DNA of 64,000 bases from Tunturiibacter gelidiferens (lineage in GTDB: Bacteria > Acidobacteriota > Terriglobia > Terriglobales > Acidobacteriaceae), in the NCBI RefSeq assembly GCF_013410115.1, contig NZ_JACCCV010000001.1:1922001-1986000 (forward strand). The letters are read 5' to 3'. Under the pieces are notes generated by a model. That model had not been told where the DNA came from and did not search any database. It saw only the letters and a list, made by a program, of their open reading frames with translations. Position numbers and translations under genes: made by a program. This document shows positions 25,972-49,750 of the stretch, in pieces (positions within the stretch are counted from its first letter, which is position 1; each line of letters opens with the position of its first letter).

Positions 25972-26004
25972 AAGTATAGCGAATTGGTTGAAACTAATAC
26001 GCCA
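25972..26004 (-). promoter_or_regulatory. Predicted conserved promoter core, copy A
   Basis: On the minus strand: TGGCGTATTAGTT, 13 nt, TATACT (-10; plus-strand 25973-25978). The same block with identical spacing occurs at 37785-37817 and 49668-49700. No TTGACA-like -35 fits; the conserved TGGC-TAT-AGTT block covers the -35 to -20 region instead. Confidence 0.65.
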
Positions 26005-26094
26005 CGTGGAAGTTGTTTGTTTGCAATTAGTTGAAAAGGTGGGGAGCTTGACAGGCAAAATTGACTGGAGCGGCTGATAGAGCGATGGCGAGGC

Positions 26095-26760
26095 TTAGAT
26101 CGCTTTTATCAGTTCGCGGCGGAGGGCTTCGTTAAGCCAGGTTTCGTACTGCTGGGGAGTCCAGTTTCGGTCTCGGACGAGCATGCGATAGAGGTCGCGG
26201 CTGGTGAGGCACCAGAGGATGTCGCGCGCGGTGTCGCGGGTGAGACCGGGGCGGAATAGTTTTGCCTTGTGGAGGGCGTCGATGACGAGGAGCTGGCGAT
26301 CGTAGCGCTGGCAGTCGCGCTCCTCTTCGACGGACGCGAGTTCGGGAGCTAGCATGCCGGCTCCGCGGAGAAGATCTTCGACGGGAACTTCGGACTCGTA
26401 GACGCGGCGGGCGATGCGCGAGACGAAGGTGAGGCGCTCGAGGGGGGCGGTGACTTGCTGAACCTCGTTGACGAGAGCGTGGTAGTCGTCGCCAAAGCGG
26501 GCCTGATCGAGCAGCTCTGCAACGATGCCTTTTTTGGAGCCGAAGATGGCGTAGACGGTGGGGACGGCTACTCCGGCGGCCGCTGCTACGGCGGGGATGG
26601 TCATGCCGGCGTAACCGTTGCGAGTAAGGAGCAGGCGCGCGGCTGCGGCGATGCGGCTGCGAGTTTCGTCGGCCTGACGCTGGCGGGCGGGGGACTCGTA
26701 GGTTCGCTTCTGCCTGGGCTTCTTTTTTGCGGTTGAGCCGGGGGTGGACTTTTTCTTCAC
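26095..26760 (-). CDS. TetR-family transcriptional regulator
   Basis: A 221-residue regulator. A basic lysine-rich tail leads into a TetR HTH at about residues 35-80 (RSRIAAAARLLLTRNGYAGMTIPAVAAAAGVAVPTVYAIFGSKKGIVAELL), with the conserved TVYAIFGSK recognition helix. The C-terminal part is helical and ligand-binding, with no recognisable ligand. The GTG at 26760 is chosen because the tail begins there; longer in-frame starts overlap the operator. It is divergent from a small SnoaL-type gene and a reductase gene. A 28-bp perfect palindrome between them is the likely operator for autoregulation and control of the divergent pair. Confidence 0.9.
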   Translation of the reverse strand: MKKKSTPGSTAKKKPRQKRTYESPARQRQADETRSRIAAAARLLLTRNGYAGMTIPAVAAAAGVAVPTVYAIFGSKKGIVAELLDQARFGDDYHALVNEVQQVTAPLERLTFVSRIARRVYESEVPVEDLLRGAGMLAPELASVEEERDCQRYDRQLLVIDALHKAKLFRPGLTRDTARDILWCLTSRDLYRMLVRDRNWTPQQYETWLNEALRRELIKAI

Positions 26761-26778
26761 ATTCGCAGTATAGTCAAT

Positions 26779-26806
26779 TATTCGATATAGACATATATAT
26801 CGAATA
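26779..26806. promoter_or_regulatory. TetR operator-like inverted repeat
   Basis: Perfect 11-bp arms TATTCGATATA (26779-26789) and TATATCGAATA (26796-26806) with a 6-bp spacer, centred between the divergent start codons at 26760 and 26819. Size and symmetry fit TetR-family operators. Binding here would block both genes. Confidence 0.75.
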
Positions 26807-26818
26807 TGAGGTGCTGTT

Positions 26819-27388
26819 GTGAAAATCGATGCGTTTCGCTTGAAGTCTCTTCCGATTGCGTTTTCGGTGGCAATCGGCGCGTTGGCTCTCAACTCCGCGG
26901 CGCAGCAGCCTGCGGCCCATTCCATGCAAGGAGGAGGACAGATGTCGAACGTTGATGCCCATGCTGCTACGATCCATCGTCTTTATGAGGAGTGCCTGAA
27001 TCAAGGGCGGACGGATTTGTTGCCTGAGCTGGTGACGGCGAATGTGGTGAATCATACGGGGTCGAACGAACAGAGGGGACTGGCTGCGTTCGAGCAAGGC
27101 ATGCAGCAGGTTCGGGCGATGTATCCGGATCGTCACTTCACGGTGGACGATGTTTTGACCAATGGGGACAAGGGCGCGGCGCGTTGGACGATGGTCGCGA
27201 CGAATACTGTTCCTATTCTTGGTGTGGCTCCGACGGGGCGACAGCTGACCAATCATGGCGTGGTGTTCTACCGGTTTGAGGGAGCGAAGATTGCCGAGGT
27301 TTGGATTCAGGTGGACCAGCTTGGTGTGCTGCGTCAGATTGGCGTGCAGATTCCTGGTCTTCCGGCGAAGGCTGGAGCGGAGCGCTAG
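26819..27388 (+). CDS. Secreted SnoaL-like ester cyclase/hydrolase-type protein
   Basis: A 189-residue protein with a signal-like N-terminus (LPIAFSVAIGALALNSAAQQ). The rest is a SnoaL-like/NTF2 fold: IHRLYEECLNQGRTDLLPELVTANVVNHT, MYPDRHFTVDDVLTNGDKGAARWTMVATN, a GRQLTNHGVVFYRFEGAKIAEVWIQVD strand pair. Such proteins are widespread and usually of unknown substrate. The GTG at 26819 has GAGGTG upstream. It is the first target of the adjacent TetR regulator and is followed after 55 bp by an NAD(P)-binding protein. Confidence 0.82.
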   Translation: MKIDAFRLKSLPIAFSVAIGALALNSAAQQPAAHSMQGGGQMSNVDAHAATIHRLYEECLNQGRTDLLPELVTANVVNHTGSNEQRGLAAFEQGMQQVRAMYPDRHFTVDDVLTNGDKGAARWTMVATNTVPILGVAPTGRQLTNHGVVFYRFEGAKIAEVWIQVDQLGVLRQIGVQIPGLPAKAGAER

Positions 27389-27443
27389 ATGCGAAGGCGC
27401 TAAACAAGAGGGTGCTGGACAGAGTGAGTGAGAGGAGAATGCA

Positions 27444-28058
27444 ATGCGATTAATGATTCTTGGTGCGACGGGCGGGATCGGACGGCTGCTTGTTTCCGGT
27501 GCGCTCGAAGCAGGGCATGAGGTGACGGCGTTTGTGCGTTCTCCAGAGAAGGTAAGCCAGAAGAGCCCGCGGTTGCGTGTGATTGGCGGCGATCTTTTTG
27601 ATGTGCAGCAGATGGCTGTTGCTGTCCGCGAGAGTGAGGTGGTTATCTCCGGATTTGGTCCGTCTACCCTGCGCAAGACGACGCTGCGGCGTGATTTTGG
27701 GCATGCAGTGGTGCAAGCGATGCGGGTGGCCGGAGTGAGGCGTTTGATCCACGTCACGTCGGCGTTTTTGTTTTCGGACGCAGGAGCGATGGTTGCGTTA
27801 TTTGGCGGCACGCTGTTTCACAATGTGGTGAAAGACCATGTGAGGTCGGAGGCTGAGATGATGCAGCCTGATCTGGAGTGGACGATGGTGCGGCCTCCGC
27901 GGCTGGTGAACCAGACTGCAAAGGGTCGGATACGAGAGGTGGCAGGGCACCTGCCGAAGGGCGGCACCGTGATCTCGAGAGGCGATGTGGCGAGCTTCAT
28001 GCTGAAGGAGGCGGCTGCGCCGCGCTACGTGAGGCAGATTGTCGGGATCAGTGATTGA
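27444..28058 (+). CDS. NAD(P)H-binding (atypical SDR) protein
   Basis: A 204-residue protein of the NAD(P)H-binding/NmrA-like group. It has the atypical Rossmann motif MILGATGGIGRLLVSGAL at the N-terminus, VIGGDLFDVQ and the VIHVTSAFLF-like strand (RRLIHVTSAFLF), and lacks a clear YxxxK pair. These proteins act as flavin/quinone reductases or redox sensors. GAGAGGAG lies upstream of its ATG. Co-oriented with the SnoaL-type gene, it is probably under the same TetR operator. Confidence 0.85.
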   Translation: MRLMILGATGGIGRLLVSGALEAGHEVTAFVRSPEKVSQKSPRLRVIGGDLFDVQQMAVAVRESEVVISGFGPSTLRKTTLRRDFGHAVVQAMRVAGVRRLIHVTSAFLFSDAGAMVALFGGTLFHNVVKDHVRSEAEMMQPDLEWTMVRPPRLVNQTAKGRIREVAGHLPKGGTVISRGDVASFMLKEAAAPRYVRQIVGISD

Positions 28059-28136
28059 GTGAAACGACGGGCCAGGTGTTCGAGCTAGAGCAAATTTCGA
28101 GTTGATGTAGAGGATGCCGAACGGAGGGCAAAAGCA

Positions 28137-28178
28137 GATTCCTCCCCCTTCGACTTCGCTCAGGGTGCGGAATGACAA
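28137..28178. repeat. Dispersed intergenic repeat, GGATCCTTCGG type, diverged copy 2
   Basis: GATTCCTCCCCCTTCGACTT followed by CGCTCAGGGTGCGGAATGAC resembles the motif at 12588-12618 with insertions. It sits between convergent genes. Confidence 0.5.
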
Positions 28179-28224
28179 CAAAAATGAGCGGTAGAACACC
28201 TCTATAGCAACAAGAAATTTGCTT

Positions 28225-29268
28225 TTAGCGCGTCATGCGATCGAGGTGGCGGTAGCCGCCGGTGGCGATGAAGGCGGTGAGGAAGATGGTGAAGTTGTAG
28301 CTGGCGTGGATGAGGGTTGAGGCCAGAACAGAACGAAGGCGGATGCGTATGGCGCTGAGGATGAGCGAGACGCAGAAGAGCAGCAGCAGTACGGGCCAGG
28401 TGAAGGCTGTCTGCTGGCCGTGGAGCGCGGCGAAGAGGATGCTGGTGAAGACGGCGGAGAAGACCAGGGCGGGCGTGGAGATCTTGTTGTTGGAGTACCA
28501 GAACTCGCGGGCGGCGGGGGTGCGGGGGAGCGAGAGCCAGTCGTAGGCGATGGCGACGGCGGGCAGGAGGAAGCCGCGGAAGAGGATCTCTTCGAAGAGG
28601 GGGGCGAGGAGGATGCCGAAGAAGGTGACCAGCCAGACGTCCGATGGCGTGCGGAAGAAGTCGTCCATGGGGATGTCTTTGGGGATGGCGATGACGGACG
28701 AGATGGCCTGCACGGCGAAGGAGAGGGTGAGGCCGATGGGGATGAGGCGGAAGGCGTTGCGGCGGGCGGCGTCGGGGTTCGCGTCGATGCCGTTGGCGAA
28801 GGGACGCTTCCAGAGGAGGGGGAAGACGAACCAGGAGATGGCGAGGGTCGCGAGGTAGGTGAAAGCCTCTGAGGCTATGAGCAGCTTGGGCGGAAAGGAG
28901 GCGGCTGATAGTTTGCCGCCGATCGCGGGACCGTGAGTGAAGCCGAGGAGAAGTAGCTGGGTGAGGAAGAGGAAGAGGCCGGCGATGGCGAGGAAGAGGA
29001 GGGCGTGGCCGAGGTTGGGGATGCGGTGAGGAGCGTCCTCGGGCGCGTCATTGGGCGTGTTGTCCATGGGAGGCTGAAGGATGGCCTCGCCTTCGGGGAG
29101 TATGGGGTGCACGACGGGAGCGTCTGATTGGCTTCGGGTCTGGGGTGGGGCGGGAACCGGGTTTGGAGAAAGAAAAGCGGCCGTGTGTTGGGCGATGTCC
29201 GAGCTAGCGGATCGGGACACGGGGGACCCGGAGGCTTGGGTTGCGGGGTTCGGGGTTAGTTCGCTCAT
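28225..29268 (-). CDS. CPBP-family intramembrane glutamic protease
   Basis: A 347-residue membrane protein. A proline/serine-rich cytoplasmic N-terminal region of about 90 residues precedes seven or eight hydrophobic segments. The CPBP (Abi) motifs are present: [11 protein letters not shown] near residue 226, FAALHG near 290 and [12 protein letters not shown] near the C-terminus, giving the glutamates and histidines of the intramembrane active site. Substrates are unknown; eukaryotic relatives process prenylated proteins. Its ATG overlaps the uvrA stop by four bases on the same strand. Confidence 0.88.
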
Positions 29269-32200
29269 GCTTTTTTCGTGCTTGGGGCCGGCTTTGAGGC
29301 GGGTGGTTTGTTCTTCGATCCTGAATCTTTTCGAGTCCCTGCATTGCTTATTGTGGACTTCTTTGCGGCTTTTGGCTTGATGCTTTTGGGGGATCTTTCG
29401 GCGGGTTTGGTGGTGCTGGCTTTGGCGAGACCGGTTTTCTTCTCTGGTGCGATGAATTTGGCTTTTGGCTGTTTGATCGCGTCGGGGGCGGCGGCGATGG
29501 TTCGGGGCTGGGGGCCGGCGTGGCTGGTGCCGTTGCGGCTGGCGAAGTTGGATTTGTGGGAGGTGTAGTAGCGGGCGAGGAAGCCTCCGGTGTGGGAGGC
29601 GGCGACGGTGGCGATCTGCTCGGGCGTGCCGTGGGCGATGACGCGGCCGCCGCCTTCGCCGCCCTCGGGACCCATGTCGAGGATGTAGTCGGCGTTGCGG
29701 ATGATGTCGAGATTGTGCTCGATGATGACGACGGTGTTGCCTAGGTCGGTTAACCGGTGGAGGACCTCAAGCAGTTTTCTGACATCGTCGAAGTGGAGGC
29801 CGGTGGTGGGCTCGTCGAGGAGGTAGAGGGTGCGGCCAGTCTGGCGCTTGCTGAGCTCGCGGGCGAGCTTCATGCGCTGGGCTTCGCCGCCGGAGAGGGT
29901 GGTGGCGGACTGGCCGAGATGGATGTAGCCGAGGCCTACGTCGACGAGGGTTTGCAGCTTGATGTTGACGGTGGGGATGTCTTTTAAGATTGGGACGGCG
30001 TCGGCGATGGGGAGGTCGAGGAGGTCGGCGATGGAGTAGCCGTTGAACTTGACGGACAGGGTCTCCTGATTGTAACGACGTCCGTTACATACTTCGCAGA
30101 GGACATAGACGTCGGGGAGGAAGTTCATCTCGATGCGGCGCTGGCCTTCACCCTGGCAGGCTTCGCAGCGTCCGCCCTGGACGTTGAAGGAGAAGCGACC
30201 GGGCTTGTAGCCGCGCTCGCGCGATTCGGGGAGCATGGCGAAGAGGTCGCGGATGGCGGTGAAGACGCCGGTATAGGTGGCGGGATTTGAACGAGGAGTC
30301 CGCCCAATCGGGGACTGGTCGATCTGGATTACTTTGTCTAGCTGATCGATGCCGATGACCTTGCCGTGCTGGCCGGGCTCTTCGCGAGAGCCGTAGAGTT
30401 CTTTGGCGAGGGAGCGGTAGAGGATGTCGTTGACGAGGGTGGATTTGCCGCTGCCGCTGACGCCGGTGATGACCGTCATGACGCCGAGGGGGAAGTGGGC
30501 GGTGACGTTTTGCAGGTTGTGGGAGTGGGCGTCTTCGACGGTGACCCAGTTGTTGGTGAGTTCGCGGGGTTGGGTCCGGGCAAGGATCTCGATCTTGCCG
30601 GCGAGGTACTGGCCGGTGATGGACGCTGGATTGTCCATGATTTGTTGGGGGGTGCCGTCGGCGATGAGGAGGCCGCCGTTTTTTCCGGCGCCGGGGCCGA
30701 GGTCGAGGACGTAGTCAGCCTTGCGGATGGTGTCTTCGTCGTGCTCGACGACGAGGACCGTGTTGCCTAGGTCGCGGAGGTTTTCGAGGGCGTTGATCAG
30801 GCGCTGGTTATCGCGCTGATGGAGACCGATGGAGGGCTCGTCGAGGACGTAGAGGACGCCGCGGAGGCGCGAGCCGATCTGGGTGGCGAGGCGAATGCGT
30901 TGGCCTTCGCCGCCGGATAAGGTGGCGGCGGAGCGGTCGAGGGCGAGGTAGCCGAGGCCGACGGCGTTGAGGAACTCGAGGCGCTCGATGATCTCGCGCT
31001 GGAGGCGGTCGGCGATGATGCGGTCGCGACCTACGAAGTTTATGTTGCGGGCGGAGGTAAGAGCGCGCTCGAGAGGTAGGGCGGTGAAGTCGGCGATCGA
31101 TGCGCCGTTTACCGTCACGGCAAGGGATTCGGGGCGGAGGCGGCGGCCTTTGCAGACGGGGCAGATGGTCGCGGACATGTACTGCATCATGTACTCGCGA
31201 TAGCCCTCGGATTTGGTGTCTTCGAGGTTGGAGCGGAGGTATTCGAAGATGCCATGGAAGCCCGTGCGGCCGGCTTCGGCGCGCGGGGGGCCGTAGAGGA
31301 AGAGGTTTTGCTGCTCGGTGGTGAGGTCTTCGAAGGGGAGCTTAATGTTGATTTTTGTTTTTTCGGCGAAGAGCTTGATGAGGCGGAGGAGGTAGGCGGA
31401 GCCGCTGCCGGGGCCCATGGCGCCGTCGAGGAGCGGCTTGGACCAGTCGGTGATGGTCTTGGCGGGGTCGAAGTCGTAGATGCTGCCGAGGCCGTGGCAG
31501 TTGGGGCAGGCGCCGTAGTTGGAGTTGAAGGAGAAGCTGCGGGGCTCGAGGCGGGGGACGTTGATGCCGCAGTCTGGGCAGGCCATGGAGGAGGAGTAGA
31601 GGGTTTCGTCCTGCTCACGGGTGTTGGGGTTCTGAATGCCGATGAGGACGAGGCCGTTGGCCATCTGGAGGGCTTTGGTGACGGAGGTCTCGAGGCGGCG
31701 GGTGTCGTATTTGGAGGTTGCGTTGGCGAGGGCTGCGTTGGTGTTGGGTTCTCTCGCTTCGGGTGGGAGGGGCTTGAGGATGATGCGGTCGACGACGGCT
31801 TCGATGGTGTGGTTCTTGCGCTTTTCGAGGCGCATGCCTTCGGTGAGCTCGGTCATCTCGCCGTCGATGCGGGCGCGGAAGCCTTGCTGGTCGAGGGCTT
31901 CGAGCTCTTCGCGGAACTCGCCTTTCCGGCCGCGGACGATGGGGGCGTAGACGGTGATGCGTTCGCCGGGGGAGAGGGCGGCGATGCGTTCGACGATCTG
32001 CTCGGCGGACTGGCGGGTGATGGGGCGGTGGCAGTTGGGGCAGTGGGGCTGGCCTACGCTCGCGTAGAGGAGGCGGAGGTAGTCGTAGATCTCGGTGATG
32101 GTTCCGACGGTGGAGCGGGGGCTGCGGGAGGTGGTTTTCTGTTCGATGGAGATGGCGGGGGAGAGGCCGTCGATGGCGTCGACGTCGGGGCGCTCCATCT

Positions 32201-32405
32201 GGTCTAAGAATTGTCTTGCGTACGCCGATAAGGTTTCTACGTAGCGGCGTTGGCCTTCGGCGTAGATGGTGTCGAAGGCGAGAGAGGATTTTCCGGAGCC
32301 GGAGAGGCCGGTGACCACGGTGAGGGTATTGCGCGGGATGCTGACGTCGACGTTGCGCAGATTGTGCTGGCGAGCGCCGCGGACGGTGATGTGAGTAATG
32401 CCCAT
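29265..32405 (-). CDS. uvrA: Excinuclease ABC subunit A
   Basis: A 1,046-residue damage-recognition ATPase of nucleotide excision repair. Both Walker A motifs are visible ([10 protein letters not shown] near 32 and [10 protein letters not shown] past the middle), both LSGGE/A signatures ([24 protein letters not shown]), and zinc-finger cysteine pairs ([33 protein letters not shown]). Ordinary UvrA is about 940 residues; this one carries an additional C-terminal tail of about 105 residues rich in K, P, S and A. The start at MGITH is chosen as the usual UvrA N-terminus; in-frame upstream starts lack ribosome-binding sites. Confidence 0.96.
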
Positions 32406-32648
32406 GTGAGTTCTGTGGCGATGTTCGGCCAAGTCTCTAGAATACGGCATTTTTAGGGGGAGAGATTTGCTGGAAGGATCGTTGGTTTGGATCGAGGCAA
32501 CCCCGGAATGGGAAAGATGTATCCGAAGGAGCAATAACAGCTACTTTCGGGCCATTGTAATCACACAGAAGTTTGTAACAATAGTCACGATGTAAAAGTC
32601 TTGTTGCTGGCGGAATGGGCTGGCAGCCTGGAAATCCGAGGAGTGGGT

Positions 32649-32822
32649 GTGAATTCGTCGATTGTGTTGGTGTCTGCGGTGTTAGCTTCGTTGGCGGTGG
32701 GTGTCTTGGTGGCCTACGGAGTTTGTATCGCCATGTTTAGTGCGTTCCAGATGCACGCGCGTCAGATCGCGGGGAATGCTGCCCGTCAGGTCTCGGCTAC
32801 TGTGCAGGTTCTGAAGAGCTAG
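32649..32822 (+). CDS. Small single-pass membrane protein
   Basis: A 57-residue protein starting at GTG 32649, with GAGGAG about five bases upstream. The first 33 residues form one hydrophobic segment (IVLVSAVLASLAVGVLVAYG), followed by a short amphipathic tail (AFQMHARQIAGNAARQVSATVQVLKS). No family is recognised. It is alone on the plus strand between uvrA and a minus-strand gene. Confidence 0.6.
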   Translation: MNSSIVLVSAVLASLAVGVLVAYGVCIAMFSAFQMHARQIAGNAARQVSATVQVLKS

Positions 32823-32883
32823 ACGGCGACGCCGAGAGCCTGGAAGCCGCGGTTTGTCTGCATTTTCAATCCTAAATTGGGCG

Positions 32884-33660
32884 TTATTGAGGCGGAGCTG
32901 GCTGGCGGAGGCGCTGGAGCTGCTCGTAGATCTGCTGAGGCGTTTTGACGCCATTGGGTGAGTCCGGCTGGGAGGTGTCGGCCGGAGTGGCTGAATCTGG
33001 TGTGGCGGGAGTGATGGGCGGGGCCGTTCGATTGCGGGTGGAAGGTGCTTCAAAGGTGGAGGGCGGCGGGGGCTCTGGTGCTGGTTGAGCCTGTTCGGTA
33101 TCAGATTTGTCGTCGAAGGTTTGCGCGTTTGGGTTGGGAGGCGTTGGACCGCCCTGGCGCGGGGTGAGGATGAGTTCGGCGGGCGTCGTGCCATCGCGAG
33201 CCACTAGGAGCATATTGCTGCCGGTGCCGTCCAACAGATCGGCTAATACCTGATCCGGCGCGGCGGGACCGTAGTGGCCGAAGACGCGCTCGTCCATGAC
33301 GCCTCCTGTGATCTTTATGCCGGTCTCGCGGGAGATTTGACGGAGGATCTGATTGAGGCTGGAGTTGTCGGCGGTGACCGAAAGGATGCCGTTGGCCAGA
33401 GTGACCTGGGCGTGCTTTGGCTGCTCCTGGGATGGAGTGAGGGGCGTGGCGGGCGTGGGCGGCGGCGTGGGTGCAGTGGTGAGAGCTGTGGCTGGGAGGG
33501 TGGACAGCGTCTGGACCGCGCCCGCGGGTTTAGCCTGCGGAGCCGGAGCGGTCTGCGCCGACAGCAGAGCGGAGAAGGCGAAGCTGGCGGCGGTGATGAG
33601 ACGAATTGGCGTGCTGCTCTGCATGTAGTTGTAGGACGAGTTGCGGCGAAGGAATGTCAT
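32884..33660 (-). CDS. Secreted proline-rich protein with secretin/TonB short N-terminal (STN)-like domain
   Basis: A 258-residue exported protein. After a signal-like segment (IRLITAASFAFSALLSAQ) comes a Pro/Thr/Ala-rich linker, then at about 84-150 a compact domain (ILSVTADNSSLNQILRQISRETGIKI ... LADLLDGTGSNMLLV) with the strand-helix pattern of the STN domain found in secretins and TonB-linked sensors. A second Pro-rich stretch ends in TPQQIYEQLQRLRQPAPPQ. Short STN proteins may be assembly parts or sensors. No secretin gene is adjacent. A start at 33624 is also possible. Confidence 0.7.
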   Translation of the reverse strand: MTFLRRNSSYNYMQSSTPIRLITAASFAFSALLSAQTAPAPQAKPAGAVQTLSTLPATALTTAPTPPPTPATPLTPSQEQPKHAQVTLANGILSVTADNSSLNQILRQISRETGIKITGGVMDERVFGHYGPAAPDQVLADLLDGTGSNMLLVARDGTTPAELILTPRQGGPTPPNPNAQTFDDKSDTEQAQPAPEPPPPSTFEAPSTRNRTAPPITPATPDSATPADTSQPDSPNGVKTPQQIYEQLQRLRQPAPPQ

Positions 33661-33939
33661 CCGTGACGAGTACGTGCTCTCATGATCAGCTTATCGCGGA
33701 CGAGGCTCGGTAGAGTTACTTTTCTATCGCAGCCAGCGGGTTGGTCCTGTTCGTTCCGGAGCTTTCGAGTGGCCTGCAATCATGAGTGAAGGATCCGACT
33801 CTTTTGATTCAGGTGTTTGGTGACGACGACTTTGAAGACGCCGCCTGTCTGGATTTGTGAGAGTGGCTGTAGACTGAGGATGCCTTTGGCGAGTCTCGAA
33901 TCAGTCCGCTGAGTCCTCGAGGCACCGCAACAGGCTGAT

Positions 33940-37559: not shown

Positions 37560-37734
37560 CAGGTCTGATTATCACCCCTTGGGGCTACCCCCTGGGGGTA
37601 TCTCGAGCGTAAGCCTATTATTTTGAAGTACATGGCGGTTTTCCGTTTCGGTAAAATCTTCTAAATAAAGGGGTTACTGGCAAAATCGTCTAAACAATGG
37701 GGTTACGGCATTTCCTTTCGTAGGGTGAAAAGAA

Positions 37735-37764
37735 AAGTGGCCCAGCAGGTTCGCCGGGCCACTT
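37735..37764 (-). terminator. Hairpin in the leader of ubiX
   Basis: Perfect 9-bp arms AAGTGGCCC (37735-37743) and GGGCCACTT (37756-37764); on the minus strand TTCTTTT follows. It lies about 25 nt after the predicted -10 box and has the features of an intrinsic terminator at the start of the transcript. Confidence 0.7.
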
Positions 37765-37784
37765 GCTTTGATGCTTCTACGTTC

Positions 37785-37817
37785 AATTATAGCGGACCGG
37801 CTGTAACTGATACGCCA
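37785..37817 (-). promoter_or_regulatory. Predicted conserved promoter core, copy B
   Basis: On the minus strand: TGGCGTATCAGTT, 13 nt, TATAAT, a perfect -10 consensus. Same length and order as copies A and C. Confidence 0.7.
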
Positions 37818-37941
37818 TCTCTCGGGGCGAAATTTTTGGGGTACAGGAGTTCTATTTGCAATGAGTTACGCGGGGATCGCATGTCAGGGATGACTGGCGA
37901 GGGCTTGACAGTTTATTTGGCTGCTTTGCGATTTGGCGAGG

Positions 37942-38620: not shown

Positions 38621-39421
38621 TCATTCGTGCGGAAAAGGGAAACGTGCGCTCGTTGTCCATTTCTTTCCGTCGATCTCTACCGCCTGTGTTGGTCGCAGCT
38701 TCGCTACAAACGTTTCGTACTCGGCAAGTTTTGCAATCGGTACGAACAAATTGTATCCGTGCTTCGTTTGTACGGAGCGGGCATCTCTAACGGTCGGAAG
38801 ATCGGCTGGCCAATTTGCACTGGATTTTGCGTATGCAAATGGCCATATGATTACTTCGAAAAAAGGGGGCTGCCAAGGTTTGGGATCGCTGACGCGAAAA
38901 GCGAATAGTGTTTCGAATGCCGTCTGCAGATCGGAAGGTAGTTTTCTTGTAAGTAGATCTGGAATGCTTTGGCGAAGTGGACCGTACACGGAGACTGTCT
39001 TGAAGCCGTTCGCGGCGTTTACAACGAGAACGTTGGTTGGCATATCAGTTGCATCGACAATGCTGTAGCAATCGTTGAATTCGGAAGCGTGATCGAGATG
39101 CGAGAGTGAGAGTAGATTTTCTATTTCGATTTTGGAAAGGTGGCCTGATACATAGTGGCCAGATCGTCGATTTCCTTGCCAATAGATTACGGTCCCATCG
39201 ACGTAAAGAGCGAAGGACGGAGAATCGGAGCCAATCGCCATCGCCCAAGGATTGTATTCTGTGAGGAGAACGATCGGCTGTAAGCCCTTCCATTGATTTT
39301 TCTTGTTCGATGCGGAGAGGCTGCAGTCTTGGGCATGCGTTGTTGAAACCAGGGTAGCCAAGAGCAACGCAATCCGAAGAAAGTAAGTGGAGCGTAGCGC
39401 TGTCCTTCTAGTCGCGTTCAT
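38621..39421 (-). CDS. Secreted hypothetical protein, AT-rich orphan
   Basis: A 266-residue protein with a signal peptide (FLRIALLLATLVSTTHAQ). Its C-terminal part holds strands such as FALYVDGTVIYWQGN, NVLVVNAANGFKTVSVYG and FFEVIIWPFAYAK, with no family recognised. Sampled 60-bp lines are 42-50% GC, far below the neighbouring genes at around 60-65%, which suggests recent acquisition. It is flanked by the YkgJ-type and PRISE-type genes on the same strand, but has no evident operon link. Confidence 0.6.
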   Translation of the reverse strand: MNATRRTALRSTYFLRIALLLATLVSTTHAQDCSLSASNKKNQWKGLQPIVLLTEYNPWAMAIGSDSPSFALYVDGTVIYWQGNRRSGHYVSGHLSKIEIENLLSLSHLDHASEFNDCYSIVDATDMPTNVLVVNAANGFKTVSVYGPLRQSIPDLLTRKLPSDLQTAFETLFAFRVSDPKPWQPPFFEVIIWPFAYAKSSANWPADLPTVRDARSVQTKHGYNLFVPIAKLAEYETFVAKLRPTQAVEIDGKKWTTSARFPFPHE

Positions 39422-40700: not shown

Positions 40701-40706
40701 ACGTTG

Positions 40707-40913: not shown

Positions 40914-41005
40914 AGAACGATCGTATAACGGGCCGATGGTTTCGAACAGGGTTTGGCTTTGTGGTGAAGTAGCCCTTACCTTCACTGAAGGCTTGGCAGG
41001 GTCGG

Positions 41006-41200
41006 CTAGTTCGAAATTCGCTTGATTCTTCCCCTCGCGCGGAGATACAGCAATGCAAATCCGCACATGCCTGCTAAGGCTGTCCACGGATCATTTGGTT
41101 TGGGGTTAATTGTCAAATCTCCGACTAAGACGAGACCGCAGAAAACCGAAACGATCAGAAAGAACCATTTACCTATTCTCAGCGCCGTCAGAATATTCAC
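41006..41200 (-). CDS. Small membrane protein, AT-rich
   Basis: A 64-residue protein with two hydrophobic segments (WFFLIVSVFCGLVLVGDL and WTALAGMCGFALLYLRARG). The gene is 45-48% GC in sampled lines, below its surroundings. No family is recognised. Confidence 0.5.
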   Translation of the reverse strand: MNILTALRIGKWFFLIVSVFCGLVLVGDLTINPKPNDPWTALAGMCGFALLYLRARGRIKRISN

Positions 41201-41265
41201 GGGTAAGTTCTCACTCTTCTAATCGTCACTTCAATCGGCCAGCTTTTTTGGAGCGTTGCTTTGTT

Positions 41266-42789: not shown

Positions 42790-42854
42790 GAAATCTCCCA
42801 TAGATGGGATGCGGGAATGGGATGAGGAAGGACGTTCGTTCAGGTGGAAAAAGT

Positions 42855-44156
42855 CTATTGATTGAGGACGCGGGCGAAGATGGCGTCTACATTGGCTAGC
42901 TGGCGGTTGTAGTCGAAGGCGCGGGCTAGTTTTTCGGGGGAGAGCCGGGCGGTGATCTCGGGGATTTTGGCGATCTCGTCGCGGAAGATGAGGTCGTTCT
43001 TCCAGGAGTTCATGGCGTGGCCCTGCACGAGGCGGTAGGCGTCCTCGCGGGACATGCCGGATTCGGCGAGGTCGAGCAGGAGCTGGCCGGAGAAGATGAG
43101 GCCGCCGGTGGACTCGAGGTTCTTCAACATGCGGGCGGGGTAGACGAGGAGTTTGGCGATGAGGTTCTCGGTTTTGGCGAGGAGGTAGTCGGCGAGGATG
43201 GTGGAGTCGGGGAGGATGATGCGCTCGGCGGAGGAGTGGGAGATGTCGCGTTCGTGCCAGAGGGCTACGTTTTCGAAGGCGGTCTGCGCGTTGGCGCGGA
43301 TGACTCGGGCGAGGCCGGAGATCTGCTCGCTGGTGATGGGGTTGCGCTTGTGCGGCATCGCGCTCGAGCCTTTTTGTTTTTCGCTGAAGAACTCTTCGGC
43401 TTCGCGGACCTCGGTGCGCTGGAGGTGGCGGATCTCGGTGGCGATCTTGTCGAGGGTGCTGGCGAGGACGGCGAGGGTGGAGATGTAGGCGGCATGGCGG
43501 TCGCGCTGGACCACTTGTGTAGCGATGGCAACAGGTTTGAGACCGAGTTGGTTACAAATGGCTTCTTCGTGCTCGGGCTTGAGGTGGCCGAAGGTGCCGA
43601 CGGCTCCGGAGAGCTTGCCTACGCGGAGGTCTTCGGCGGCGGCGTCGAAACGGGTGAGGTTGCGCTGCATCTCGGAGTACCAGAGGAGGAGCTTGAGGCC
43701 GAACGTGCTGGGTTCGGCGTGGATGCCGTGGGTGCGGCCGATGATGGGGGTGTGCTTGAACTCTAGCGCGCGTTTCTTCAGGGTTTCGGAGAGGGCTACG
43801 ATGCCGGCGCGGATGATGGCGGAGGCTTCTTTGAGCTGGAGGGATTGTGCGGTGTCGACGACGTCGGTGCTGGTGAGGCCGTAGTGGAGCCAGCGGGAGG
43901 CTTCGGGGTCGGCGATGTGCTCGGCGACGGTGGTGGTGAAGGCGATGACGTCGTGACGCACCTCGGCTTCGATCTCGTTGATGCGGTCTACAGTGAAGGC
44001 GCCCTTGTCGCGGATGGTGTCGGCGGCGGACTGGGGGACTAGGCCGAACTTGGCGAGGGCTTGCGAGGCGGCGACTTCTACGGTGAGCCAGCAGCGGTAC
44101 TTGTTGGCGTCGGACCAGATGCGGCCTAGCTCGGGACGTGTGTAGCGGGCGATCAT
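42855..44156 (-). CDS. purB: Adenylosuccinate lyase
   Basis: A 433-residue enzyme of purine synthesis which releases fumarate from SAICAR and adenylosuccinate. The fumarase/aspartase-superfamily signature GSSAMPHKRNP is near residue 266, with GRTHGIHAEPST near 140 and TSTDVVDTAQSLQLKEA near 94. Length and the N-terminal MIARYTRPELGRIWSDANKY opening match the bacterial PurB of about 430 residues. The purine genes usually grouped with it are absent here. Confidence 0.96.
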   Translation of the reverse strand: MIARYTRPELGRIWSDANKYRCWLTVEVAASQALAKFGLVPQSAADTIRDKGAFTVDRINEIEAEVRHDVIAFTTTVAEHIADPEASRWLHYGLTSTDVVDTAQSLQLKEASAIIRAGIVALSETLKKRALEFKHTPIIGRTHGIHAEPSTFGLKLLLWYSEMQRNLTRFDAAAEDLRVGKLSGAVGTFGHLKPEHEEAICNQLGLKPVAIATQVVQRDRHAAYISTLAVLASTLDKIATEIRHLQRTEVREAEEFFSEKQKGSSAMPHKRNPITSEQISGLARVIRANAQTAFENVALWHERDISHSSAERIILPDSTILADYLLAKTENLIAKLLVYPARMLKNLESTGGLIFSGQLLLDLAESGMSREDAYRLVQGHAMNSWKNDLIFRDEIAKIPEITARLSPEKLARAFDYNRQLANVDAIFARVLNQ

Positions 44157-44574
44157 GATGTTTCCTTCTATGGGTAAAGTCTGCGGCTGCGCATTCGAAT
44201 GTGTCGATCTTGGTTGGTAGTGTTGACTGTCGGCGGAGGGTATATCTCAAGGGCTAAAGCCCGGCCTATCAAAAAAACAACAGTGAACGGCAAGAGAAAC
44301 GGCAACTGCAGCGGCAAAGCAACGGCAAACGCAACGGCAACAGCAAAGGCAACAGCAACGGCAACGGCAACAGCAAAGGAACGGCGACAGCAGATCCCTA
44401 CGGGATGACAAGCAAAAAAACTAGCAACAGCAACGGCAAAGGCAACAGCAGATCCCTACGGGATGACAAAAGAACTGGCAACCGCAACAACACAGGCAAC
44501 AGTTATTAAGGGTCTTAGAGCAGAGCTTGTGGCTTGTGCTTCGTCAGTGACTGCTGCGGGTGCGAGGAGTTTAG
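44157..44574. other. Gap upstream of purB, mostly repeats
   Basis: About 420 bp between the purB start and the glutaredoxin stop. It holds a degenerate GGCAACAGC microsatellite and two copies of a 20-bp repeat (listed separately). The first 100 bp should hold the purB promoter. A frame through the microsatellite is not called a gene. Confidence 0.7.
44263..44516. repeat. Degenerate GGCAAC/GGCAAA microsatellite with two AGATCCCTACGGGATGACAA copies
   Basis: More than twenty tandem six-base units (GGCAAC, GGCAAA, AGCAAC and variants) on one strand, interrupted by AGATCCCTACGGGATGACAA at about 44392-44411 and again at about 44448-44467. No stop-free frame of protein-like composition is seen beyond the repeat itself. 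Confidence 0.75.
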
Positions 44575-44829
44575 TTATTGAGAGACGCCGAGGAGTTCGG
44601 CCATCTCGTCGTGGAGGAAGCCTTCGCCGGGGCGGTAGGGCTGGACCCACTTGCCGTCGATGACGAATTGGGGGATGGCACGCTTGCCTACGTTGGCGAT
44701 GACGAGGTCGGCGGCGCCGGGGGTGTTCTCGATGTCGATCTCTTTGTAGGGGATGTTGTGAGTGGTGAGGAAGCGCTTGGCTTCGCGGCAGTCGCGGCAC
44801 CAAGAGGCGGAGTAGACGGTGAGATCCAT
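44575..44829 (-). CDS. Glutaredoxin-family protein
   Basis: An 84-residue thioredoxin-fold protein. The active site CRDC at about residues 11-14 (SASWCRDCREAKRFL) resembles mycoredoxin/NrdH-type proteins. The cis-proline region KRAIPQFVIDGKW follows, as expected for a glutaredoxin. It probably transfers electrons to a thiol-dependent partner. It lies ten bases after the isochorismatase-fold gene on the same strand. Confidence 0.85.
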   Translation of the reverse strand: MDLTVYSASWCRDCREAKRFLTTHNIPYKEIDIENTPGAADLVIANVGKRAIPQFVIDGKWVQPYRPGEGFLHDEMAELLGVSQ

Positions 44830-44838
44830 GTTTCTATT

Positions 44839-45507
44839 TTACCGGGAGTCGCTGGTTCCCGGAACAGGGATGGCGCTAACAAGGGCAGAAATAGTCGCGA
44901 GGTCTGTGACGATGGTGTCTCCCATGTGCTGAAGGGAAGCGACACAGTGGTTGGCGGCTTCAGCATTCCCTGCACCGCATGCATCGCGGATGAGGATGGG
45001 GATGATACCGAGGTCTGCGGCTTGACGGCAGGTCGGTTCGATGCCGATTTCGAGGGCTATGCCGACCAGGAGAAGGCTGCGGATGCCACAGTCGCGAAGA
45101 GTGAACTGCAAAGGAGTGCCTTCAAAGGCGGACATGGACAGCTTGTCGAAGATTGCTTCGCTTGGGAGTGGTTGGAGTTCGGGAGATAATTGGAAGGCCT
45201 GGGAATCGCGAAGAAAAGGAGAGGAGATTTCAGCGGGGTTCTGTTTGCCTTGCCAAGCCATGGCCATTCGGTATTGGAACGACCCCATCAGTTCGGGAGG
45301 CAGCGACATGTGGCGGGTAAAGATGGTTCGTATGCCCGCGCGGCGAGTGGCTTGGAGGAGACTGCTTACCTTTGAAAGAATCTCGGCTCCCTCTTTGATC
45401 TGCGGGATGATGCCGACTTGCATGTCATAGACCAGCAGAGCGGTACGCTGCGGATGAACCAGGTCTTGAAGAGCCGTGAAGATTTCTATTCCGTTGTCTG
45501 TAATCAT
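44839..45507 (-). CDS. Isochorismatase-family protein lacking the catalytic cysteine
   Basis: A 222-residue cysteine-hydrolase fold. The aspartate (LLVYDMQVGI) and the lysine (IFDKLSMSAF) of the usual Asp-Lys-Cys triad are seen, but the motif expected to be G-x-A-T-x-x-C-V reads GIALEIGIEPTC, with glycine in the cysteine position. Real isochorismatases also lack the Cys, while nicotinamidases and most amidases need it. The start at 45507 is supported by GAGGATTG. It lies 28 bp after the SDR gene, probably in one operon with it. Confidence 0.8.
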   Translation of the reverse strand: MITDNGIEIFTALQDLVHPQRTALLVYDMQVGIIPQIKEGAEILSKVSSLLQATRRAGIRTIFTRHMSLPPELMGSFQYRMAMAWQGKQNPAEISSPFLRDSQAFQLSPELQPLPSEAIFDKLSMSAFEGTPLQFTLRDCGIRSLLLVGIALEIGIEPTCRQAADLGIIPILIRDACGAGNAEAANHCVASLQHMGDTIVTDLATISALVSAIPVPGTSDSR

Positions 45508-45534
45508 CGTCAATCCTCGTTTGAGGCGTTGCAA

Positions 45535-46308
45535 TTATTGCTCGTGGTAGTTGCGGATCAGGCCGCCGTCGACGAAGTAGGTCGAGCCGGTGACGTAGGC
45601 GGCGTCGTCGGAGGCGAGGAAGAGAGCTACGCCAGAGACATCGTCGGGAGTGCCCATGCGGCCGAGGGGAATGTTGGCGAGGAGGGCGTCGAGTTTCGGT
45701 TTGTCTTCCATGAGCTTGGTGTTGATGGGGGTGGCGATGGCTCCGGGGGCGATATTGTTGACGGTGATGTTGAGGGGGCCGAGTTCAACCGAGAGGTCAC
45801 GCATGAGCATGCGGATGCCGCCCTTGGAGGCGCAGTAGGTGGAGAAGTTGGGGAAGACCATGTCTTCGTGAACCGAGGAGATGTTGATGATGCGGCCGGG
45901 CTGTTTGGCGTCGCGGAGACGGCGGACGAAGGCCTGGGCAAGGAAGAAGGCGCCCTTGAGGTTGACGTTGAGGACGGTGTCGTAGTCGGCTTCGGTGACG
46001 TCCCAGAAGGCGGCTTCTTTCTCGATGCCGGCGTTGTTGACGAGGATGTCGCAGCGGCCTAGCTGGGTGTAGGCCTGATCAACGAGGTTTTGTGTGTCGG
46101 CGAGAATGGAGACGTCGGCTTTGACGAGGATGGCTTTGCCGCCGGCGGCTTCGGCTTTGGAGACGGTCTCCTGGGCCTGGTCGATGTTGTTGCGGTAGTC
46201 GACGACGACGGCGGCGCCTTCGCTGGCGAAGCGAATGGCGATGGCCTGGCCGATGCCGGAGCCGGAGCCGGTAACGATTGCTACTTTGCCTGCGAGACGA
46301 ACTGACAT
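45535..46308 (-). CDS. SDR family oxidoreductase (glucose 1-dehydrogenase-like)
   Basis: A 257-residue classical SDR. It has TGSGSGIGQ near residue 14, NNAGIEKE near 89, the catalytic serine in INISSVHED near 140 and YCASKGG near 156-160, and the C-terminal YVTGSTYFVDGG. Members include glucose and other sugar or steroid dehydrogenases, so the substrate is undetermined. It is nine bases after the tadA/DUF3175 reading frame, on the same strand. Confidence 0.9.
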   Translation of the reverse strand: MSVRLAGKVAIVTGSGSGIGQAIAIRFASEGAAVVVDYRNNIDQAQETVSKAEAAGGKAILVKADVSILADTQNLVDQAYTQLGRCDILVNNAGIEKEAAFWDVTEADYDTVLNVNLKGAFFLAQAFVRRLRDAKQPGRIINISSVHEDMVFPNFSTYCASKGGIRMLMRDLSVELGPLNITVNNIAPGAIATPINTKLMEDKPKLDALLANIPLGRMGTPDDVSGVALFLASDDAAYVTGSTYFVDGGLIRNYHEQ

Positions 46309-46317
46309 GGGAGGCTC

Positions 46318-47250
<933 letters not shown>

Positions 47251-47267
47251 CTATTGTCTTACCTATT

Positions 47268-47798
47268 ATGCGTCTGGTGAAGCTGTCAGTAGCGTGCAGC
47301 CTGGATGGATTCATCGAAGGGCCGGATGGGGGGATCGACTGGATTCGCGGGGGTGCAGATTATGGGATGGGTGCATTCCTGGCATCGCTGGATACGACTC
47401 TGATTGGGCGGCGGACATTTGAGTTTGCGCGAAGAAGTGGGAACAAGTTTTTTCCGTCGATGACGAACTATGTCTTTTCGACGAGCTTGCCGGCCGGAGC
47501 AATGGATGAGGTGGAGATTGTGGGTGAGGATGCTGTCGAGTTTGTAAGTGGGCTCAAGAAGCGGAGGACAGGGAAGGACCTGTGGTTGTTTGGCGGGCAT
47601 GAGCTGATTGCATCGATGCTGCGATCCCGCTTAGTGGACGAGATTTTGCTGACGGTGCATCCGGTGCTGCTGGGCGGAGGGTTACCGCTGTTTGGTAGCC
47701 TTGCGGAGCGGCAGGAGTTGAAGTTGGTTGAGGCGAAGCCATTGAAGAATGGGGTTGTGATGTTGTCGTATCGCGCGATAGTGCGAGCGGGTCAGTAG
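47268..47798 (+). CDS. Dihydrofolate reductase/RibD C-terminal family protein
   Basis: A 176-residue RibD-C/DHFR-like domain protein. Visible features are VACSLDGFIEGPDGGIDW at the N-terminus, TLIGRRTFEF and the LWLFGGHELIASMLRSRLVDEILLTVHPVLLGGGLPLF block. The ATG at 47268 has no good ribosome-binding site, and lies only 20 bp from the divergent tadA start. Its 3' end overlaps that of the HD gene by seven bases. The exact reductase activity is unknown. Confidence 0.87.
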   Translation: MRLVKLSVACSLDGFIEGPDGGIDWIRGGADYGMGAFLASLDTTLIGRRTFEFARRSGNKFFPSMTNYVFSTSLPAGAMDEVEIVGEDAVEFVSGLKKRRTGKDLWLFGGHELIASMLRSRLVDEILLTVHPVLLGGGLPLFGSLAERQELKLVEAKPLKNGVVMLSYRAIVRAGQ

Positions 47799-48400
47799 AG
47801 GTTTGGGCCGGCTTCGGATTCGAGGGCATCGAGGAAGGATTGCATGATGTGAAAGCGGGGTATGGCGAGGGCTCTGGAGGTGTCGAGTTTGAGTTGATCG
47901 GGGAGGGTGGCGAGTTGTTTTTTGAGGGCGTGGAGGGCTTCGGTGAAGGTGCAGAAGCGTGTGTCGCTGCCGAGTTTGGCGAGGGTGCGGGTGATGCCGA
48001 TGGCTCCGAGTTGCTCGAGGATGTCGGCGTCGCGGGCGATGGTGGCTTCGAGGGTTAGGGGAGCGTCTTGCGGCTGGTGGGTGCGGATGACTTCGAGGAC
48101 GGCGGAGATTTTTTCTGAGGGGAAGCCGGCTTCGGTGAGGATGGCGGGGGCTTTTTCGATGATGCAGGTTACGTGGTTCCAGGTCTTGAGGGCGGCTTCG
48201 TCTTCGGGGCGTTGGCCGATGAAGACGCCGAGGTCGTGGAGCCAGACGGCGGCAAAGACTACGTCGTCGTCGTAGGTGAGGCCGCGGCCGATCTGTTGCG
48301 TGAGGGCGTAGAGGCGAGGCTGATGGCCGAACTTGTGGGTCGGGTTCGCGTGGGTGGCGATGTAGGTTTCGAGTGCGGCGCGATAGGGTTGAATGGTCAC
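47792..48400 (-). CDS. HD-domain phosphohydrolase-like protein
   Basis: A 202-residue HD-superfamily protein. The metal-binding motif is seen in VWLHDLGVF near residue 53 (His-Asp), with HVTCIIEKAP and IARDADILEQLG supplying the remaining histidine and aspartate ligands. Such small HD proteins often hydrolyse nucleotides. It is followed, five bases upstream on the strand, by aguA. Confidence 0.87.
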   Translation of the reverse strand: MTIQPYRAALETYIATHANPTHKFGHQPRLYALTQQIGRGLTYDDDVVFAAVWLHDLGVFIGQRPEDEAALKTWNHVTCIIEKAPAILTEAGFPSEKISAVLEVIRTHQPQDAPLTLEATIARDADILEQLGAIGITRTLAKLGSDTRFCTFTEALHALKKQLATLPDQLKLDTSRALAIPRFHIMQSFLDALESEAGPNLY

Positions 48401-48404
48401 CGTG

Positions 48405-49490
48405 TTATGCGGGCTCCTGTTGGCTGAGGCAGTGGAGGGTGCCGAGGCCCCAGACGAGGTCTACGGCGTGGATGCCGATGATCTCGCGGTCGGGGAAGCA
48501 GGCGGCGAGGATGTTGAGGGCGCGGCGGTCGTTGGGATCGTTGAAGGTGGGGACCAGGACGAGCGAGTTGGCGATGTAGAAGTTGGCGTAGCTGGCGGGG
48601 AGTCGCTGATTGTCGAAGATGACGGGGGCGGGCATGGGGAGCTCGACGATTTCAAAGGGCTGGTTTTCGAGATTGCGGAAGCTGCGGAGGCGGTCGAGAT
48701 TTTCGGCCAGGGGTAGGTGGTTTTCGTCGTGGGTGTTGGGCTCGACGGCGGTGAGGATCTTGTTTTCGCCTACGAAGCGGGTGATGTCGTCGATGTGGCC
48801 ATGGGTGTCGTCGCCGGCGCAGCCTTTGTGGAGCCAGAGGACCTTTTCGATGCCGAGGTATTCGTGGAAGGCGTGCTCGAGGCGCTGGCGGGTTTCGGAT
48901 TCGTTGCCGAGGCCGGGGTTGCGCTCCTGGATCTTGGATAGGAGGCACTCTTCGGTGGTGAGGAGGAGGCCGGCGCCGTTGGTGTCGATGCTGCCACCTT
49001 CGAGGACGAGGCGATGTGCGCTGCCGTCGGGAAGCTGGACCTCGGGGCGGATCTGCGGGATGTCGTAGTGATGGGCAACGTGCACAGGGATCTGGTCGTC
49101 GCGTTGCCAGTTGTCATACTTGGCCCAGGCGTTGAACTTCCAGTTGGTGGCGGCGAGGTCGCCGTGGGGATTCTTGACGAAGATGGGACCTGAGTCGCGG
49201 AGCCAGACGCGGTCGGTGGGCCATTGGTGGAAGTGGAGGCGGGCGAGGTTGGCTCCGGTGCGGCGGAGAAGGTTGGTGACGCGGCGCTCGGCGGCGAGAT
49301 CGTTGACGAGGATGTGTACGTCTTCGACGCGGGAGAGATGGCGGACGATTTCGCTGTAGACCCAGGGGATGGGTTGGAATTTGCTGGGCCAGTCCTCGGC
49401 GTTGTGGGGCCAGGCGATCCAGGTGGCGGCGTGAGGGGACCACTCGGCGGGCATGCGGTAGGTCGTCAGTTTGTGGTTGGTGCTGGTCAC
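48405..49490 (-). CDS. aguA: Agmatine deiminase
   Basis: A 361-residue enzyme which converts agmatine to N-carbamoylputrescine. The N-terminus MPAEWSPHAATWIAWPHN, WLRDSGPIFV, the histidine motif DDTHGHIDDITRF and the C-terminal LGTLHCLSQQEP with the catalytic Cys (about residue 355) are diagnostic. GTG at 49490 is preferred, since the longer frame runs into the GC-rich leader. It ends four bases before the HD gene. Its partner aguB lies 2.3 kb upstream on the same strand, with an oppositely oriented cytochrome gene in between. Confidence 0.93.
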   Translation of the reverse strand: MTSTNHKLTTYRMPAEWSPHAATWIAWPHNAEDWPSKFQPIPWVYSEIVRHLSRVEDVHILVNDLAAERRVTNLLRRTGANLARLHFHQWPTDRVWLRDSGPIFVKNPHGDLAATNWKFNAWAKYDNWQRDDQIPVHVAHHYDIPQIRPEVQLPDGSAHRLVLEGGSIDTNGAGLLLTTEECLLSKIQERNPGLGNESETRQRLEHAFHEYLGIEKVLWLHKGCAGDDTHGHIDDITRFVGENKILTAVEPNTHDENHLPLAENLDRLRSFRNLENQPFEIVELPMPAPVIFDNQRLPASYANFYIANSLVLVPTFNDPNDRRALNILAACFPDREIIGIHAVDLVWGLGTLHCLSQQEPA

Positions 49491-49511
49491 TCGAGTGCCG
49501 TTCCTTTCGGG

Positions 49512-49750
49512 AAGGTACCCCCCTCCCTCCCGTCTTAGTTGCGTAAAGTCTTCCATCCAAAAGATTTCACGTCGTACTTTGGGTACACGATTGAGGCAAG
49601 GTACCAGATTTGAGTCACACTCTGGTGAACCGGGGCCGTGCTTTGCACCTGTCGGTACTCTGTTTTTAAGTATAGCTGGCGGGGGGTAACTAATATGCCA
49701 TGTGGATGCCGTTGATGGATGGGGGTTTGGGTGAGTTTAGGGGTTGACAG
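49512..49750 (-). repeat. Composite promoter/leader element, copy C (upstream of aguA)
   Basis: In minus-strand order: CTGTCAA (49750-49744), 43 nt (identical to copy A), the 33-bp core (49700-49668), a weakly paired leader with a single GCGTAAAGTCTTCCATCC unit, and GAAGGTACCCCCCTCCCTCC 24 bp from the aguA start. Confidence 0.7.
49668..49700 (-). promoter_or_regulatory. Predicted conserved promoter core, copy C
   Basis: On the minus strand: TGGCATATTAGTT, 13 nt, TATACT. Same spacing as copies A and B; the block between the boxes differs, so the conservation is restricted to the two boxes. Confidence 0.65.

Follow-up and report, generated by a model that had tools for sequence, protein, structure and literature searches.

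Correia repeat enclosed elements, the miniature inverted-repeat transposable elements (MITEs) of Neisseria, are dispersed between genes and carry sigma-70-like promoters that affect their neighbors (PMC10969869). In Coxiella burnetii, QMITE1 and QMITE2 are present in 45 and 78 copies in one genome (PMC5896051); QMITE1 is 300 to 400 bp long and contains promoters, and QMITE2 is found chiefly in 3' untranslated regions (PMC5896051). Repetitive extragenic palindromes and bacterial interspersed mosaic elements (REP/BIME) are located mostly between convergent or codirectional genes (PMC3733652), and the dispersed SPRITE repeat of Streptococcus pneumoniae contains a sequence resembling a rho-independent terminator (PMC10969869). 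Here, we analyzed a 64,000-nt stretch of the genome of Tunturiibacter gelidiferens (RefSeq assembly GCF_013410115.1, contig NZ_JACCCV010000001.1, positions 1,922,001 to 1,986,000; referred to as the window), in which three look-alike sites are copies of one dispersed intergenic repeat of ~280 nt, present in ~70 copies in this genome. We tentatively read this repeat as a gene-boundary cassette, in which a predicted promoter, directed rightward, and a hairpin terminator, in most cases two-way, would start and stop transcription at gene boundaries, a reading to which we give slightly less than an even chance.

Correia, QMITE, SPRITE, and REP sequences share parts of the behavior of this element, not its anatomy. 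Correia elements have terminal inverted repeats; none were seen in the T. gelidiferens copies, where the only inverted repeat searched for was that of a relative described below. These copies are divergent, keep their positions, and show constraint in their boxes. QMITEs have direct repeats, and QMITE1 has inverted repeats (PMC5896051), whereas tandem units and a fixed box spacing are features of the present element that the passages of that paper on QMITEs do not describe. A REP is a palindrome of 20 to 40 bp, in contrast to the far longer, multipart arrangement around a promoter-like core described here. To our knowledge, neither a promoter core nor a fixed upstream box nor tandem units are known for SPRITE. 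No description of the element turned up in the open-licence literature searched with Acidobacteria-related terms.

Anatomy of the repeat

A first-pass annotation of the window had reported a promoter-like core repeated three times with invariant spacing and had proposed a promoter class served by a lineage-specific sigma factor or activator. The repetition itself was borne out: the pattern TGGCRTATYAGTT-N13-TATAMT, in which 13 variable nucleotides (N13) separate the two boxes, matched the window exactly three times, always on the minus strand, where 0.00 matches were expected from 100 dinucleotide shuffles. The sites had been placed correctly, except that each block (25973-26004, 37786-37817, and 49669-49700) spans 32 nt rather than 33 and starts one base higher than annotated. 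The annotation had named, as a refuting outcome, genome-wide matches no more frequent than in shuffled sequence; this outcome was not seen, with 24 exact occurrences of the pattern in the genome and 0 of a reversed-pattern control. When up to three mismatches were allowed, there were 61 core matches in the genome versus 2 for the control. One of the 61 is the plus-strand 13-mer TGGCATATCAGTT (39038-39050), which lacks a -10 hexamer and lies within a called gene; it was excluded, and the other 60 copies (L001-L024 and L139-L174) form the set studied here.

The core is the middle part of a longer repeat, in which box A (TGTCAAgCCCC) is followed by the core, a GC hairpin, AT-rich units 28 to 30 nt apart, and a G/C run. 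Of these modules, the first-pass annotation mentions only the core; the other four belong to the same repeat. TGTCAA, which was not in the search pattern, was found upstream of the core in 58 of the 60 copies versus 2 of 240 control stretches. At least one AT-rich unit (TAACyC..TTTG..ATTTTGC) was present in 53 copies and 11 controls, a run of five G or C in 52 copies and 51 controls, and a post-core hairpin with a predicted free energy (dG) below -10 in 44 copies and 98 controls. The stem letters of the hairpin vary among copies, and its start falls 6 to 22 nt past TATAMT in 40 of the 44. All four additional modules were present in 34 copies and three in another 20, so that at least three accompany the core in 54 of the 60.

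A profile search with the element, for which 8 of the 60 copies were left out, recovered three copies in the window; its only other match there was a short antiparallel echo within copy 2. The copies and their parts are as follows.

25793..26058, minus strand: element copy 1, upstream of pyrE (locus L008); profile match 25796-26058, E = 7.6e-49
26044..26053, minus strand: copy 1 box A (TGTCAAGCTC), position -49 relative to the TGGC box
25992..26004, minus strand: copy 1 box B (TGGCGTATTAGTT)
25973..25978, minus strand: copy 1 predicted -10 (TATACT)
25933..25957, minus strand: copy 1 hairpin, dG -11.0 (-19.0 in the same-species genome)
25821..25918, minus strand: copy 1 AT-rich tandem units, two by the unit pattern (limits set by eye)
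25793..25810, minus strand: copy 1 ACCC/G-run/GTACCCCC end
37581..37910, minus strand: element copy 2, long form, between a CxxCxxCC-domain gene and ubiX; profile match 37582-37818, E = 1.1e-44
37901..37910, minus strand: copy 2 box A (TGTCAAGCCC), 93 nt upstream
37805..37817, minus strand: copy 2 box B (TGGCGTATCAGTT)
37786..37791, minus strand: copy 2 predicted -10 (TATAAT)
37728..37762, minus strand: copy 2 hairpin GTGGCCCGGC..GCTGGGCCAC with T-run, dG -24.2
37607..37705, minus strand: copy 2 AT-rich tandem units, two by pattern (limits set by eye)
37586..37600, minus strand: copy 2 TACCCCCAGGGGGTA palindrome, from the sequence
49514..49752, minus strand: element copy 3, eroded, upstream of an aguA-like gene; profile match 49542-49752, E = 4.6e-25
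49740..49749, minus strand: copy 3 box A (TGTCAACCCC), at -49
49688..49700, minus strand: copy 3 box B (TGGCATATTAGTT)
49669..49674, minus strand: copy 3 predicted -10 (TATACT)
49514..49530, minus strand: copy 3 G-rich end GGAGGGAGGGGGGTACC

In copy 3, a strong hairpin was not found (dG -7.7), and the unit pattern identified 0 units.

Boxes A and B lie 49, 71, or 93 nt apart, that is, in steps of 22 nt or about two helical turns. Measured from the start of TGTCAA to the start of TGGC, the distance was 49 nt in 51 of the 60 copies (one with a second TGTCAA at 93). It was 48 nt in two copies and 71 nt in two more, the ubiX copy had 93 nt, and single copies had 69 and 85 nt; TGTCAA was absent from the remaining two. 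Loci at which the values 49, 71, and 93 were noted include L009, L141, and L173. In Acidobacteriaceae KBS 89 it was 49 nt in 31 of 34 copies, TGTCAA being absent within 130 nt in 3. Among the 23 loci of a second genus (g24) on which our figures rest, 22 had 49 nt and one had 48. The same distance was 71 nt in all of the 7 loci on which the figures for genome G016 (L394-L418) rest and 93 nt in 26 of 28 copies of RYN_3 (L175-L204), with 92 and 94 once each. Two-turn steps would be expected if proteins bound to boxes A and B had to share one face of the DNA. Successive AT-rich units, which together with box A are candidate protein-binding sites, are mostly 28 to 30 nt apart in the T. gelidiferens genome, KBS 89, and g24, and the next interval is 39 to 42 nt in g24.

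In the model alignment described below, most rows of which were chosen by the pattern, positions 1, 2, and 6 of TATAMT show no variation, as in known -10 elements. The start of box B (the TGGC box) precedes the -10 by 26 nt, so that a TTGGC-like -35 would leave a spacer of ~20 nt, compared with the usual 17; canonical TTGACA 17 nt before the -10 was not seen by eye at any of the three window sites, as the annotation had said. A natural guess is that the core would be an activator-dependent promoter with this long spacer and with box A in register upstream. The sigma-54 consensus has TGGC followed by TT in a -24/-12 layout. The core resembles it in that its TGGC is followed by TT and differs in having a -10 hexamer and no -12 GC; a sigma-54 promoter was rejected because none of the 24 exact copies has GC at -12. 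A leftward promoter from CTTGACAG, the reverse of box A, was likewise rejected, a -10 at the right distance being missing by eye.

Some copies depart from this plan, and the comparison of box conservation among the genome's own copies leaves out 6 variants of the 60. L153, L169, L170, and L172 have a different, CTTCGCCAAAGT-like stretch before the TGGC box, and the first three of these additionally have a long GGGCTGCC..GGCAGCCC-like hairpin. At L141/L173 (G000 C1:371221-371464) there are two tandem cores ~210 nt apart and another hairpin, without an orthologue among the copies of the same-species genome G061. Immediately to the left of several copies (for example, L006 and L149; L157, L163, and L023) are two other short intergenic repeats, one TCATCCCGTAGGGATCTGC-like and one GGGCNCCGTCCGGCAGGACA-like.

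Distribution and constraint

A 94-position sequence model was built from 72 aligned copies, chosen from more. It gave 73 matches in the T. gelidiferens genome at E up to 0.01 (150 of 1231 candidates scored). Of 62 Edaphobacter genomes, 53 had matches; across the order, 39 of 120 genomes did, all within four genera of one family; copy figures per genome are lower bounds, with 68 candidates scored per genome in the genus and 35 in the order. In a named collection, 83 of 90 stretches came from Edaphobacter, "Granulicella sp. S190," or Acidobacteriaceae KBS 89, and the other seven from Bacteroidota (six) and Gammaproteobacteria (one). The boxes of the second genus, g24, are somewhat different (TTGGCATG.TATTTCC and TAAAAT), and the layout is the same.

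Of the 60 copies, 58 are at the same place in G061. Substitutions between the two genomes affected 16/638 sites in box A (2.5%), 10/754 in box B (1.3%), and 5/348 in the -10 (1.4%), versus 306/3480 in the adjacent left flank (8.8%), and each box was slower than that flank (Fisher's exact test; box A, 1.7e-9; box B, 1.8e-16; -10, 2.5e-8). Counts elsewhere were 102/2030 in the A-B spacer, 101/1740 in the hairpin zone, 312/4640 in the array of units, 386/4640 in the far left flank, 276/3480 at the right edge, and 280/4060 in the right-hand gene. The N13 between box B and the -10 changed at 43/754 sites. Gap rates were 0.000 to 0.002 from box A to the -10 (0.000 in N13), 0.002 in the array, and 0.035 in the left flank. 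These low substitution and gap rates indicate that the boxes and their distances are held while the spacer letters drift.

The same rates bear on a different explanation, namely that the repeat is mainly a DNA site, where one or more proteins on boxes A and B and the units organize or insulate the chromosome and transcription is secondary. The two-turn steps between boxes A and B, the unit interval common to two genera with its next interval in the second, and the low gap rate of the array compared with the flank are what such a site would lead one to expect. Conservation of the -10 hexamer and the hairpin as well speaks against it, and a binding protein was not found. We consider this explanation unlikely; it overlaps the cassette reading, so that the chances given to the several readings need not sum to one.

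In RYN_3 (G029), near-identical copies of ~450 bp enclose the core (for example, L038, L089, L110, and L111), with 49 core matches in all. These copies have the terminal inverted repeats CTAGAG(G/C)CTGT.ATGAACT, with CTAG, a candidate target-site duplication, at both ends in three of four aligned copies. This version indicates that the element was at least once carried by, or turned into, a MITE. Two further loci, L206 (G031) and L207 (G024), have a single exact copy of the RYN_3 inverted repeat beside an L153-type variant core.

A selfish family of the MITE type, with promoter and terminator as passengers and no host role, would account for a dispersed, intergenic, multicopy repeat with such a version, and the element at ubiX was not found in two close relatives. 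Promoters are also carried by the published MITEs Correia and QMITE1 (PMC10969869, PMC5896051). However, a search of the T. gelidiferens genome limited to the RYN_3 inverted repeat gave one match, with 2 mismatches. The sharing of nearly all copies with G061 argues against recent mobility, RYN_3 being the exception, and the slow change of the boxes relative to the flank, together with a box spacing and unit interval common to the second genus, also counts against a passenger role. On balance, we regard a purely selfish family as improbable, if worth keeping in mind.

Neighboring genes and the hairpin

The annotation had named pyrE, ubiX, and aguA as the genes downstream of the three window copies. 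The first two names stand: the pyrE product scores above the TIGR00336 cutoff, and the gene after copy 2 encodes a UbiX-family flavin prenyltransferase above the TIGR00421 cutoff. The protein encoded downstream of copy 3 is agmatine deiminase-like (PF04371, E = 4.8e-113) and falls under both NCBIfam agmatine deiminase cutoffs.

Gene orientations were taken from a home-made gene caller, single calls of which may be wrong. Of the right-hand genes at the 60 copies, 31 were called codirectional and 27 convergent; the other 2 had no call. Convergent pairs flanked 18/56 copies in the T. gelidiferens genome, 16/31 in KBS 89, 11/32 in three E. lichenicola genomes, and 10/23 in the second genus, in excess of the 20/141 at other gaps 150 nt or longer; rows in which one side had no gene call were dropped from these counts. 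When flanks were compared, as locus pairs, with those of 49 related loci (out of 83, the other 34 being excluded for their short flanks), the right flank alone was shared in 19, the left alone in 1, and both in 9. The element therefore stays with its right-hand neighbor, which is the stronger linkage. For the 19 right-only pairs, the right gene was called codirectional 9 times and convergent 8 times, with 2 left uncalled.

Presence at pyrE and ubiX was judged on 30 loci per gene, a subset of all places found. At ubiX, the element occurs in five (G000, G061, G002, G028, and G017) and was not found at the other 25, among them the loci of G031 and G024, both close relatives; the two genes at this site are nearly adjacent in G018 and G022. 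At pyrE, 12 of the 30 loci gave profile matches, one of them weak. Of the rows without the element that were inspected by eye, 2 of 3 for pyrE retain TACAAT just ahead of the ATG and 4 of 4 for ubiX retain GATAAT just ahead of the start, so that pyrE and ubiX seem to have starts of their own. In addition, CTCTACAATCGA stands directly before the pyrE ATG (window 25749-25770) and is conserved in several relatives, whether or not they have the element, which suggests a near-leaderless pyrE transcript.

These observations bear on the annotation's proposal of a promoter class, with its own sigma factor or activator, for the downstream genes. The promoter-like constrained boxes, the fixed spacer, and the near restriction to one lineage remain in its favor, as do the 31 codirectional right-hand genes and the finding that the copies with codirectional right genes more often lack the hairpin in this genome, the aguA copy, without a strong hairpin, among the supporting cases. 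However, the 27 copies with a convergent right-hand neighbor face the 3' end of that gene, most cores are accompanied by at least three of the four other modules and by a hairpin, and relatives have pyrE and ubiX without the element. The near-equal numbers of right genes that begin or end at the element, and the element-free pyrE and ubiX, suggest that this is not simply a promoter class for unrelated downstream genes, and we hold that explanation to be quite unlikely. It may apply locally: copy 3 has lost the strong hairpin and the units but kept the boxes, and it may serve as an ordinary promoter of the aguA-like gene.

In this genome, retention of the hairpin differed with the orientation of the right-hand gene. 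At a threshold of dG < -12, it was present in 19/22 copies with a convergent right gene versus 12/29 with a codirectional one (Fisher's exact test, P = 0.0014); this test used 54 copies less those uncalled, and 4 of the 60 without a right gene within 600 nt were excluded. For other genomes, copies near a locus end or uncalled were excluded, and the tabulated set is without RYN_3 and S190; hairpin medians pointed in the same direction in three of four of them, with uneven significance. Tract scoring of the T. gelidiferens copies called stems in 35 of the 60, with an A-run 5' and a T-run 3' in 23, rightward tracts only in 3, leftward only in 5, and neither in 4. Leftward-only tracts were found at 14/25 stems in KBS 89 and 10/15 in the second genus. 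From this distribution, the hairpin is best read as a putative two-way terminator in this genome and elsewhere chiefly as the probable end of the right neighbor's transcript.

A proposed role at gene boundaries

In the gene-boundary cassette, box A, box B, and TATAMT would form the predicted rightward promoter. Its transcript would meet the hairpin within the first ~15 nt and end after 35 to 50 nt, and the hairpin would also halt transcription arriving from the right-hand neighbor. Where the right gene points away from the element, as in the 31 codirectional cases, a weak or missing hairpin is more frequent in this genome, and some of these copies, the aguA one included, may have turned into ordinary promoters of that gene.

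Several points weigh against this reading. The idea linking hairpin and orientation was formed on the same genome that gave the P value of 0.0014. In KBS 89, the replicate gave 0.015 by the Mann-Whitney test but 0.15 and 0.65 by Fisher's exact test; Mann-Whitney values were 0.053 for M8US30, 0.66 for M8UP22, and 0.89, with reversed medians, for X5P2, and the three E. lichenicola genomes pooled gave 0.094. A wobble strand test favored neither strand (32 G-T and 23 A-C). With respect to constraint, the search pattern used in both genomes contained box B and the -10, though not box A, and the coding DNA of the right gene (280/4060) changed more slowly than the left flank, so that 8.8% lies at the high end of the yardsticks. 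Stem sites changed little less than loop sites (36/1053 versus 17/319; P = 0.14), and altered stem pairs were still paired in 15 of 27 cases. A terminator also leaves the tandem units and the G run unexplained. Finally, a rightward T-run is absent from 16/25 stems in KBS 89 and 11/15 in the second genus, which suggests that a short rightward RNA is not general.

The last point applies equally to a small-RNA gene family that would act in trans through a short 5' stretch and the hairpin. A promoter-like core and a terminator-like hairpin at a spacing suited to an RNA of 35 to 50 nt, with a moderately conserved GAAACAGA-like stretch following the -10, would fit such a family. On the other hand, the hairpin dG is not below -10 in 16 of the 60 copies, and the positions are fixed beside particular genes, which suggests action in cis. 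Rfam gave 0 matches in the window at the gathering score. Among the 17 loci searched, there were 2 matches in one set of 9 and 4 in one of 8, all below gathering scores; these sub-threshold matches are opposite-strand or partial alignments on the element and name unrelated small RNAs. We therefore consider a trans-acting small-RNA family a poor prospect.

A broader form of the gene-boundary cassette is conceivable, although we doubt it: the ~70 copies per genome may be boundary elements common to the family Acidobacteriaceae, with dedicated proteins on box A, box B, and the units in helical register. The promoter, set against a two-way terminator, would then act as an operon insulator and could decay to a plain promoter if the next gene points away. 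Dozens of copies of this constrained, multipart, noncoding element occur in each of many genomes from one lineage of soil bacteria, and it has no Rfam match at threshold. If the boundary reading is true, it would constitute a bacterial insulator-like module at ~70 natural sites, with sister copies in which one part has been lost.

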